In this document: positions 17 to 13,224 of the stretch, piece after piece | Layout: each line of letters opens with the position of its first letter | Position numbering within the stretch: position 1 is the stretch's first letter | Origin: a virus | Reading direction: 5' to 3' (one strand) | IMG/VR virus record: IMGVR_UViG_3300017963_004677 | Location: 1 to 26,434 of that record | Length of the DNA stretch: 26,434 nucleotides | Translations under genes and position numbers: made by a program | Notes under the pieces: model-generated | What the model saw: the letters and a program-made list of their open reading frames with translations, nothing else | What the model was told of the DNA's origin: nothing | The model's database searches: none

Positions 17-45
17 TTGACATTAAAACGTTTTTGTGAGATACT
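17..45 (+). promoter_or_regulatory. Strong sigma-70 promoter, lambda-PL-like
   Basis: A perfect -35 box TTGACA (17-22) is followed after exactly 17 bases by GATACT (40-45). The -10 box is preceded by TGA (37-39), an extended -10 element. From memory, the same two hexamers and the same spacing are found in phage lambda PL. Transcription would start near base 52 and read the rightward operon 171-2155. A second reading of the -10 as TACTAT at 42-47 gives a poorer 19-base spacer. Confidence 0.75.
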
Positions 46-1783: not shown

Positions 1784-2155
1784 ATGTTAGAACTTTACGA
1801 GGTACCGCTTAATATCAATGCAATATCAGAAGAACACTTAAACGCTCCCTTAGGGCAATTGGGCCTAGGCGTAAGAGCACATATGTGCTTGAAACACTCC
1901 GGCTTTAATACCGTAAGAAAAGTATTAGAAAGTACAGATGCCGAGCTATTATCGATAAAGAACTTTGGGCGGAAAGCACTGCGTGAAACAAAAGAAGCGC
2001 TTCGCAACCACTTAATATCATACGTAGGGCCAATCAAGCCTAGGGTAGATATAGAAGCAGAGCTAAAAGAGCTACGAAAGGACATAGACGATCTGTACGA
2101 AAGATCAGATGAATTTAACACACGCATCGAGGATTTGGAATACGAGGTACTATAA
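1784..2155 (+). CDS. Stand-alone RNA polymerase alpha C-terminal-domain homologue
   Basis: A 123-residue protein; AAGGAG (1773-1778) precedes the ATG. Residues 23-77 align without gaps to the C-terminal domain of bacterial RNA polymerase alpha (RpoA). Mapped to E. coli numbering from memory, DNA-contact residues R265, C269, N294, G296, K298 and E302 are kept as R31, C35, N60, G62, K64 and E68, while N268 is Met34 and S299 is Ala65. The sigma-contacting acids D259 and E261 are Gln25 and Gly27. The N-terminal assembly domain of alpha is absent; instead residues 88-121 form an acidic, probably coiled-coil tail. The fold is a double helix-hairpin-helix, so DNA binding is likely. A role in redirecting host transcription is inferred from the homology and the position as last gene of an early-type operon. 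Confidence 0.8.
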   Translation: MLELYEVPLNINAISEEHLNAPLGQLGLGVRAHMCLKHSGFNTVRKVLESTDAELLSIKNFGRKALRETKEALRNHLISYVGPIKPRVDIEAELKELRKDIDDLYERSDEFNTRIEDLEYEVL

Positions 2156-2168
2156 TATTAGCTAATAT
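2155..2168. repeat. 14-bp palindrome between convergent stop codons
   Basis: ATATTAGCTAATAT is a perfect palindrome lying between the stop of the alpha-CTD-like gene (2153-2155) and the stop of the convergent large terminase gene (2162-2164). It is too AT-rich to be a convincing terminator and has no T-run. No other terminator separates the two convergent operons here. Confidence 0.5.
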
Positions 2169-3553
2169 CTAGGCAGATCATCTCTGAACACAGGAGGCAT
2201 GTGCGCCTGGTTGCCATACATCGCTTCTCTGTAACGTTTCTCTAGTTCCTCAGGCGATGTGTTGGAATTGATTTTTCGTAGCGATACGCAGAGATATCGC
2301 ATGCTATCAGCGAAGTTGCTGAATACATCGTGCAGTGGCTTCTCTTTGTAGACCTTTCTTTTAGGGTCGTACTCCTGCCTATAGTTCTCTAGAGCTTTAA
2401 TGAGCGACGCACAGTTGTTTGCGTCAAACCACATCGAGGGTAGCTTAGACCTAACCGCTTCAATTCCATCCATGATCCCAATTTTGTCAGCGACTGTAAA
2501 TGTGATTCCAAGCTGTCTTGCTTTCTCCCATCTTGTGATGCCTGTGCTGAAGTCCATGTTTCTGATGTCGTGCGGTCCGATGTGCTTACCGTACGTGTAC
2601 TCTTTCGATTTAAGAACATTAACATAGTGCTCTATCCCTTCTTTATTCTTCTCATAACAATCTATAACACGTATAACCTGCCCCGCAATTTGAAAAAATA
2701 TGATGGACGTCATATCTCGGCAACCGATGTCCCAACTTGTATGTACAGGTAGTCCAGGTTCCCATGGAACGTGAGATATCTGCCCGTTGAGACGTAGACG
2801 ATCAAGGTATTTGGTATAATACGCACCCTCAATACCCATATCAAACGATGTCCAATACTCTTGCAACTGCAAATCCTCGCTCATCGAGCCTTCGCGACGT
2901 TCTTGTTCTATTTCTTCAAGGGGAATGTGACCAGTGTCATCTACAGTGAGCTTAGATACATACCAGGAGTTAGGATTCTCAAGCGCTGTATTGTACATTT
3001 CCCACATAAAATTCTTTCCACGAGGTGTACTGACTATCAGAGCCCACCCTCCATTGGCTGATAGAATAGGTCTAACGAACGAATATGCTAATGGATTACT
3101 AATAGCAAACTCAGAGAACACAACACCTTTCGGGTTGGTTCCAACGAGTGCATTATCGTAGTTGTCTGACCCTATGACCTGAAAGACAGAGCCGTTCTTG
3201 AGCTTGATACGCATGAGCTGTTCGTTCTTGGACTCTATGAGTTCTTTAGGAAGGTAATCAAGTATTCTAAAGCCGTCGTTATTAATGGCGTCCCACAATA
3301 TACGACGGCCACTTGAGTAGGTGGGAAAGACATAATAAATTGTTTGAACGGTGCGCAGCAATTCTTGGATACATATGTTCCAAGCACACATATCCTTGCC
3401 GCTTCTTCTTGGCCAGACGGCCATAACTTTTTTAAAACCGCAATTGATAATTGCATCGAACAGGCACTTTTGGTATTCACGAGGTACAAACTTATTTAGA
3501 TGTACCTTTACCTCTGGCGTCAGCCCTGTCAGATGGCTCGCTTCTTGAAACAT
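2162..3553 (-). CDS. terL: Large terminase subunit (DNA-packaging ATPase and nuclease)
   Basis: A 463-residue protein, usual size for the family. The N-terminal ATPase shows a Walker A motif PRRSGKD (48-54), a Walker B strand ending in the catalytic acid (GVVFSE, E148) and a coupling motif STPRG (175-179). The C-terminal RNase H-like nuclease shows the expected acids in WDIG (D275), PHDIR (D329) and FADSMRY (D416). It should dock on the portal, drive DNA into the prohead and cut the concatemer. It is the last gene of the leftward block 6984-2162. The ATG at 3553 lies inside the upstream frame by 62 bases, preceded by an AGAGAGAGAGAAGAAG purine run. The GKD ending of Walker A is common in this terminase branch and not a defect. 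Confidence 0.93.
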   Translation of the reverse strand: MFQEASHLTGLTPEVKVHLNKFVPREYQKCLFDAIINCGFKKVMAVWPRRSGKDMCAWNICIQELLRTVQTIYYVFPTYSSGRRILWDAINNDGFRILDYLPKELIESKNEQLMRIKLKNGSVFQVIGSDNYDNALVGTNPKGVVFSEFAISNPLAYSFVRPILSANGGWALIVSTPRGKNFMWEMYNTALENPNSWYVSKLTVDDTGHIPLEEIEQERREGSMSEDLQLQEYWTSFDMGIEGAYYTKYLDRLRLNGQISHVPWEPGLPVHTSWDIGCRDMTSIIFFQIAGQVIRVIDCYEKNKEGIEHYVNVLKSKEYTYGKHIGPHDIRNMDFSTGITRWEKARQLGITFTVADKIGIMDGIEAVRSKLPSMWFDANNCASLIKALENYRQEYDPKRKVYKEKPLHDVFSNFADSMRYLCVSLRKINSNTSPEELEKRYREAMYGNQAHMPPVFRDDLPRY

Positions 3554-11796: not shown

Positions 11797-13215
11797 CTAC
11801 GGTAATGTAGCTAGCAAAAAGCCACCAAACCAAGTACGAATATCCCCAACACCACCAGTCGAAATTATATCAACGTTCTTAACACCACCAGATATTGTCA
11901 TGGTTAACTCTGCCGTATCTCCTGCGTCCATCCGAGTTGTAGTAGAAACAACAAATGTATACTGATCAATATTATCTACAATAGGTGTAGGATCGATGTT
12001 GTTCTGAGCGTTGGTCTGGTTATATGTTCCTGTAATTTGAACTTGTGTTTGCGCCGCATTGTGACCAAGCGCCGTATCTTCACAAAGAATGTTACCTATG
12101 AAGCAATATATTCCCTTAGAGGTTGCTGTAAATTTACCAGTTGTGGTGTCAAACTCCCCAGCAATATCAAAAAACTCTTGGTCAAAGGGTATCTGGTACA
12201 CGGTCCCGTCACCCGTTACATTGGCCTGAGAAGCGCTTAGGTATGCTTTAAAGTTTGAGGTTGCAGTTGGTGCAATACCGGAAGCAGATATCTGTATAGA
12301 GTTGGGACCATTAACAATAGTTACACCGGCTCCAGCGGTCAACGTGTTCCAAGCAGGGGTACCTCCGGTCGCACCAATTAGGAGCTCTCCGTCGTCACCC
12401 TTTGAAGCAGTAAATACCCCAACAGCACTAGACTGAACTACGCCTTCTCCAGGATCATCAGTGTCGATCGTTATGGTGTTACCCACAGCCGAGGTCGCTA
12501 TGTTCCGACCTCCAAGGAGGTTTATAGTTCCTGCCACAGGTAGAGCAGTCCCTACGTCCGTCACAATTCTTTCAATAGCCGCATCAGCAGCGATAGTTAC
12601 GGTGTTTCCTGCCCCTGTGGTGGTGACCCCTATGCCTCCCAAAATATTTATGACGCCTGCCACGGGGGTTGCATTTCCCACGTCAGCGACGTATGTATCA
12701 GCAATGGTGTTAGGTACCACATTGATCGTTACAATATTTCCGGCTCCTGTGGTCCCCATGTTTAGGCCCCCCAAAACTTTAAGTATCCCTAAAGCGGGTT
12801 GAGCATTTCCTGCATCCGTCTGGTATGTATCGGCAATAGTGTCTAGCGCTATATTTATAGTCAAGGTGTTAGCTGTACCTACCGTCTGTAAGTTAACCCC
12901 CCCAAGCATATTAACATTGCCAACACCGTCAGGAAGAACAAGAATACCAGCGTCAGGAGTAATAGTTTCGATACCATCTCCAGATCCTATACGTATCCAT
13001 GTAGCAATTGCATCATCTTTTTTAACCAATGTCCAAAGCTGTCCATTAACACCTCCAGACCTATCCAGCCAAATTGTACCTATATTGTACCCTGCATAAT
13101 CGTTCGTGGTAGGCTCTCTTTGAGCTGAAAAAAATAGGGATGGGGCAGTTGGCTCTATCCCCATATAGGCTAACGGATTAAGTCCAGTTAACCTTGAATC
13201 TTTCCTGTTAGCCAT
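11797..13215 (-). CDS. Tail-fibre-type protein B, paralogue of A
   Basis: A 472-residue protein with AAGGA before the ATG. It repeats the plan of the neighbour downstream: attachment domain (1-77), four TDAG/ILGG repeats (about 80-265), a linker with SKGDDGELLIGATG, and a C1q-like tip with FKAYLSASQ and WFGGFLL. The two proteins match closely in the first domain and linker but much less on the strands and loops of the tip. That pattern is expected of duplicated fibres whose receptor-binding ends have diverged. The gap to protein A is only eight bases. Confidence 0.8.
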   Translation of the reverse strand: MANRKDSRLTGLNPLAYMGIEPTAPSLFFSAQREPTTNDYAGYNIGTIWLDRSGGVNGQLWTLVKKDDAIATWIRIGSGDGIETITPDAGILVLPDGVGNVNMLGGVNLQTVGTANTLTINIALDTIADTYQTDAGNAQPALGILKVLGGLNMGTTGAGNIVTINVVPNTIADTYVADVGNATPVAGVINILGGIGVTTTGAGNTVTIAADAAIERIVTDVGTALPVAGTINLLGGRNIATSAVGNTITIDTDDPGEGVVQSSAVGVFTASKGDDGELLIGATGGTPAWNTLTAGAGVTIVNGPNSIQISASGIAPTATSNFKAYLSASQANVTGDGTVYQIPFDQEFFDIAGEFDTTTGKFTATSKGIYCFIGNILCEDTALGHNAAQTQVQITGTYNQTNAQNNIDPTPIVDNIDQYTFVVSTTTRMDAGDTAELTMTISGGVKNVDIISTGGVGDIRTWFGGFLLATLP

Positions 13216-13224
13216 GATTGTTCC

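Follow-up and report, generated by a model that had tools for sequence, protein, structure and literature searches.

What might a phage do with a free C-terminal domain of the RNA polymerase alpha subunit (alpha-CTD)? The question is raised by a 123-residue open reading frame at positions 1784–2155 (+ strand) of a stretch of viral DNA of 26,434 nucleotides, the whole of which was analysed and is here called the window. Phages reprogram host RNA polymerase by several routes, including sigma appropriation, ADP-ribosylation of alpha and DNA mimics; a free alpha-CTD would directly mimic the promoter-upstream sensor.

Identity and contact surfaces of the phage domain

The gene is preceded by a good ribosome-binding site (AAGGAG at 1773–1778, read directly in the sequence), and an identical copy is carried by contig L002. 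A profile search assigned residues 16–74 (1829–2005, + strand) to Pfam family PF03118 (RNA_pol_A_CTD) with 57.8 bits and an E-value of 8.9e-16, the curated cut-off being 23.8 bits; the next-best Pfam match had an E-value of 0.005. A chance ORF is ruled out by a match at this level (E 9e-16). The top phmmer matches among PDB sequences were bacterial alpha-CTDs (best 3ihq, E 1.5e-9), and RNA polymerase alpha subunits made up 52 of the 53 distinct PDB chains found at E ≤ 1. Bacterial alpha-CTDs aligned with the phage domain at 33–38% pairwise identity and without a gap throughout residues 16–74; a preliminary description of this DNA had likewise given a gapless alignment, for residues 23–77. An AlphaFold2 model of the 123-residue protein, built from 15 aligned phage sequences, gave a mean pLDDT of 86, with values of about 95 or more over residues 21–70 and a separate helix at residues 90–122. 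When the model was compared with the PDB using Foldseek, the leading matches included alpha-CTDs and RNA polymerase alpha chains, with 9dvt_A superposing at 0.9 Å over 60 residues (probability 1.00). The profile and fold matches rule out a different helix-hairpin-helix family. Judged by profile and predicted fold, the identification of residues 16–74 as a true alpha-CTD of RNA polymerase is secure, and the proposal of a phage-encoded stand-alone alpha-CTD is borne out; the further suggestion in that description, of a decoy or tether that might divert host transcription, is a hypothesis on function.

Only 15 residues precede the CTD in the phage protein. Because full-length rpoA models match through their last ~65 positions only, the N-terminal assembly domain of rpoA is, by this alignment, absent. 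The preliminary description had the assembly domain replaced by a C-terminal coiled coil. The coiled coil itself stood up to analysis, as a predicted helix with heptads; replacement in place did not, since the domain that is absent lies N-terminal to the CTD in a genuine alpha subunit. The tail (residues 90–122; 2051–2149, + strand) is a single predicted helix with hydrophobic a/d positions I90, L94, L97, I101, L104, S108, F111, I115, L118 and V122, in which Ser108 is the sole break, and a heptad periodicity as strong was matched in 0.05% (0.0005) of shuffles. Because the helix bears so regular a heptad repeat, a dimer is likely, and the sequence and the model are most simply read as a homodimeric coiled coil. 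The computed pI values are 9.5 for the basic CTD part and 4.3 for the acidic tail. Relatives with the same tail, a search for which the preliminary description had proposed, were not found among viral contigs (protein search and two alignments) or genome contigs (protein search); these searches returned the identical contig and domain-only relatives, and nothing else.

Alignment with the E. coli domain allowed the DNA- and sigma-facing surfaces to be read residue by residue. Among the eight DNA-contact residues (R265, N268, C269, N294, G296, K298, S299 and E302), six are kept, namely R265 as R31, C269 as C35, N294 as N60, G296 as G62, K298 as K64 and E302 as E68, and two are changed, N268 to M34 and S299 to A65. 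The sigma-facing patch has lost its three acids, D258 being replaced by G24, D259 by Q25 and E261 by G27. The substitutions and the six retained contacts reported in the preliminary description were thus correct, and the loss of D258 is to be added to them. A residue census was taken with a single HMM applied to loci that profile or protein searches had retrieved. N268, S299 and E261 were each present in 51 of 51 distinct bacterial domains. In the phage domains, S299 was Ser in 27 of 33, and N268 was Asn in 31 of 33 and Met in none; at N268 the phage sample carries a partial bias, because two search patterns permitted only N/M or only N there, and the bacterial set is unbiased. N268M was accordingly seen in 0 of 51 bacterial and 0 of 33 phage domains compared.

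In published structures the side chains of R265 and N294 reach into the minor groove, K298 touches the backbone (PMC7822876, PMC5101437), and in E. coli alpha D259/E261 contact R603 of sigma70, a contact with a role in UP-element function (PMC5511352). When the residues kept and lost are set against these published roles, the DNA site appears to keep its core, with changes at two supporting positions, and the sigma contact is, on the alignment, erased. With two DNA-determinant positions changed (N268M and S299A), and given that activators dock on alpha-CTD (PMC5101437), the free domain might alternatively be a protein-binding decoy that titrates factors docking on the host alpha-CTD, such as activators and NusA, its own DNA binding having become dispensable or lost. 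We consider this unlikely: R265, N294, G296, K298 and E302, for which a decoy that binds only protein would have no use, are conserved, and the equivalent of the activator-facing loop 285–288 reads T D A E and is not specially conserved.

The accessory site beside the terminase gene

The 26.4-kb record encodes the terminase large subunit (terL), an Erf-type annealing protein, a RusA resolvase and virion proteins, and is a fragment of a tailed phage. Its minus strand also encodes, between 10373 and 21383, several very long, repetitive, low-complexity virion/fibre-like proteins of up to 946 residues with tandem paralogous modules. Searches of the window against Rfam and for tRNA gave no match, and a search for defence systems gave none beyond a weak PglW domain match. 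The tailed-phage marker terL (2162–3553, − strand; PHROG terminase, E 3.5e-24) is convergent with the alpha-CTD gene, the two lying seven bases apart, and 53 terminase large subunit loci were recovered from viral contigs. Contig L002, which overlaps the record at 99.97% identity over 3,353 bases, extends the sequence by 4.3 kb to the left; the record and L002 may stem from one sampling effort.

The alpha-CTD gene is the last of a cassette (224–2155) that runs in the order four genes of unknown function, a small membrane ORF, a ribbon-helix-helix (RHH) protein gene and the alpha-CTD. The cassette has a sigma70-type promoter at 17–45 (+ strand; L002 4293–4321), TTGACA-17-GATACT with an extended −10 TG, which is matched by promoter pairs in sister phages. 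The first four genes (224–508, 502–750, 717–1133 and 1123–1380, + strand) overlap or adjoin one another; Pfam and PHROG searches gave no curated family match for them, and among terL relatives they had no match except in the near-identical contig L005/L002. The RHH gene (1484–1774, + strand) encodes a protein whose C-terminal half is rich in Cys (CTAC...CSPEC); it is assigned by a PHROG match to Arc-like repressors (E 3e-4) and by a Pfam RHH_9 match (E 0.002) that lies under the family's cut-off. Between promoter and first gene there is a structured leader (59–135, + strand; fold −30.5 kcal/mol, z −2.4) made of two hairpins, of which the second precedes a T6 run and resembles a terminator; the leader could be an attenuator, an antitermination site or a small RNA. 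Other hairpins are found at this place in sister phages (L010 13095–13186, L011 12210–12316 and L033 12910–13024, all − strand), and the z-scores across the window and these phages range from −1.3 to −3.9.

Contig L002 shows that the cassette promoter is one of a back-to-back pair with extended −10 elements (L002 4258–4321), serving an RHH-type gene leftward and the cassette rightward. The pair is near-consensus and has facing −35 boxes, a GTCAAA-ACTG-TTTGAC inverted repeat between them and A/T-rich flanks; the RHH-like gene on the other arm, the second at this locus, was assigned by eye. Sister phages with 73–84% identical terL have retained a back-to-back promoter pair here, ahead of an RHH gene (L006 ~11724; L010 ~13216–13223; L011 ~12346–12354; L033 ~13054–13062). 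One arm of the recurring pair feeds a variable accessory gene site beside terL. Where the interval between promoters and terL was read in sister phages, its genes were assigned by eye as those of signal-peptide proteins and a GroES-like protein and as a short coiled-coil ORF; the GroES-like gene occupies L011 11260–11583. An alpha-CTD was found in 0 of 45 terL-related records, many of which are fragments. Because none of these relatives carries an alpha-CTD and other genes fill the site in sister phages, the alpha-CTD gene is an accessory one, acquired at a variable site.

That the gene is host DNA contaminating the contig was ruled out as far as possible, with terL only seven bases away, the junction repeated on L002 and the location a variable phage site. 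Relatives of terL in metagenome-assembled genomes (MAGs) span phyla (Methylococcaceae 55%, Acidobacteria 47%, Simkaniaceae 40%), and these may be misbinned phage contigs. The phage domain shares only 25–34% identity with alpha-CTDs from genomes of the phylum to which the Simkaniaceae MAG belongs. Of two genome searches with different centres, G072 and G076, the second brought back the neighbour genomes of the first and so contributed little; the phylum labels in those two sets are unsure.

The neighbourhood bears on three further accounts of the gene. The first takes its cue from the adjoining terL, and from alpha-CTD-like domains in non-polymerase proteins (PglW and the large L117/L118 proteins described below), and holds that the protein is a generic DNA-binding helix-hairpin-helix module of phage DNA metabolism or packaging, with the tail linking it to another phage protein. 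This is rather improbable, as terL is convergent, unrelated genes occupy the site in sister phages, and the alpha-CTD match stands far above that to HHH_5 (E 9e-16 versus 0.02). According to the second, the alpha-CTD would be a positive adaptor that binds A/T-rich DNA beside the RHH protein and stabilises it at the divergent promoters, as a repressor or activator partner. The co-directional RHH gene next door, the conserved promoter pair with its inverted repeat and A/T-rich flanks, and the RHH-like gene on the other arm are in its favour, although the promoters are also kept in sister phages that have no alpha-CTD, and we hold such a partnership to be quite doubtful. The third account, that the gene is a functionless, decaying fragment of a captured rpoA, could appeal to its occurrence in a single phage lineage and to its two altered DNA-contact positions; it is very improbable in view of the intact ORF, ribosome-binding site, operon and promoter, the well-formed predicted fold, the added heptad tail and the similar genes kept in many phages.

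Alpha-CTDs in other phages and proteins

A further 26 IMG/VR records exceeded the Pfam cut-off for alpha-CTD. In four of them (L058, L061, L070 and L083) tested Pfam domains established a fusion of sigma70 region 4 with alpha-CTD. The same order was recognised by eye in L062, L067, L075, L076, L077 and L081, making the fusion a recurrent one, and some of these proteins have a Cro/C1 HTH added in front. L068 encodes tandem alpha-CTD domains, and L066 and L074 each have two neighbouring alpha-CTD genes; of the two gene products at ~7448–8230 of L066 and L074, one (84 aa) has His in place of N268 and NVV in place of the NxG loop. On L063 one strand carries an alpha-CTD gene of the stand-alone type and the other an alpha-CTD split by an in-frame insertion. 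In L117 and L118, from position 2734, two tandem alpha-CTDs form the N-terminal part of a protein of >1,000 residues of unknown function.

Isolated phages carry such genes as well. Bacillus phage Goe8 encodes a 210-aa alpha-CTD protein annotated as RNA polymerase subunit alpha, the gene (L071 1959–2591; also L072) lying within an exact 7,436-bp terminal repeat; in SPO1, a relative of Goe8, the host-takeover genes sit in the terminal redundancy (PMC6873191). The alpha-CTD protein of Microbacterium phages Mazun, Morrill, Atraxi and TrippleS is annotated as a DNA binding protein, Ruegeria phage V16 also carries an alpha-CTD, and BFVD holds further proteins of 111–149 aa named RNA polymerase alpha C-terminal. 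Streptomyces plasmids gave alpha-CTD matches too, which were taken as domain matches irrespective of gene length. Phage-collection matches from Listeria, Enterococcus, Staphylococcus, Salmonella and Acinetobacter records resemble bacterial rpoA; these records appear to lack annotation or to be mislabelled or contaminated, and the matches were left out of the count of phage alpha-CTDs. No functional study of any phage alpha-CTD was found in the open-access literature.

The novelty implied in the preliminary description is thereby reduced: the annotations of several isolated phages, and BFVD, already include alpha-CTDs that stand alone, many metagenomic phages have the domain either free or fused, and the present protein is no new kind. 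What is unusual in it, leaving aside the tails of the BFVD proteins, is the C-terminal coiled coil together with the erased sigma contact.

Proposed function and relation to known systems

Our preferred reading, to which we give a probability of roughly 0.4, is that the protein is an early accessory regulator, a free alpha-CTD made dimeric by its coiled coil that would sit on A/T-rich minor grooves without recruiting polymerase and would compete or regulate at upstream promoter DNA. Host RNA polymerase would transcribe the gene from the near-consensus sigma70 promoter as the last of the accessory operon, and the protein would pair through its C-terminal coiled coil. The two tethered domains may then settle on UP-element-like DNA, in minor grooves that are narrow and A/T-rich, through the equivalents of R265, N294 and K298, probably with lowered affinity per domain because N268 and S299 are gone. 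Since the sigma-facing acids are erased and there is no N-terminal assembly domain, the dimer would be expected to fail to recruit polymerase, from which it would follow that it competes for upstream promoter DNA of host or phage, or regulates locally there, early in infection. We infer dimerisation, DNA binding, failure to contact sigma, early timing (from promoter type alone) and the effect on transcription.

Other phages offer parallels on either side. Alpha-CTDs that are paired (L068) or that come as neighbouring genes (L066/L074), or adjacent to sigma region 4, fit, by analogy, use as a paired promoter-DNA module. The location of the Goe8 gene in a terminal repeat, taken with the host-takeover genes in the SPO1 terminal redundancy, we count for the regulator. 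Against it, N268M and S299A weaken two DNA-determinant positions, so that DNA binding could be lost, and the alpha-CTD-like domains of non-polymerase proteins (PglW, L117/L118) mean that a role in transcription does not follow from the fold. A bolder and distinctly unlikely form of the proposal is that the protein acts as a bivalent clamp on A/T-rich upstream DNA, unable to touch sigma, and as a dominant competitor of UP-element recognition would selectively weaken strong UP-dependent host promoters (rRNA) and spare the near-consensus promoters of the phage.

Alpha-CTD genes turn up repeatedly in phages that are not related to one another (Herelleviridae, Akonivirus, Casjensviridae and many uncultured), often beside sigma region 4, and the present protein, with its sigma contact erased and pairing, as predicted, built in, would be a small, testable example. 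It shares with the bacterial alpha CTD (PF03118; PDB 9dvt_A, 1z3e_B, 3gfk_B) a common fold, a gapless alignment and the equivalents of R265, N294 and K298, and differs from it in lacking the assembly domain, in having G/Q/G for D258/D259/E261, Met for N268 and Ala for S299, and in its extra C-terminal coiled coil. The sigma70 region 4 fusions likewise place an alpha-CTD outside RNA polymerase; unlike the present protein, they possess a −35-reading domain and mostly keep the acids of the 258–261 patch. PglW, a BREX-type kinase, and other large proteins have weak alpha-CTD-like similarity (E 0.001–0.002) and are large multidomain enzymes. The database phage alpha-CTDs of 111–210 aa (BFVD A0A6J5L490 and A0A6J5NZM6, Mycobacterium phage Mithril, Mazun gp26 and Goe8) are also without the assembly domain; the Mazun and Goe8 proteins begin with an unrelated part and have the CTD at their C-terminus, whereas in the present protein it is N-terminal and is followed by the coiled-coil tail.
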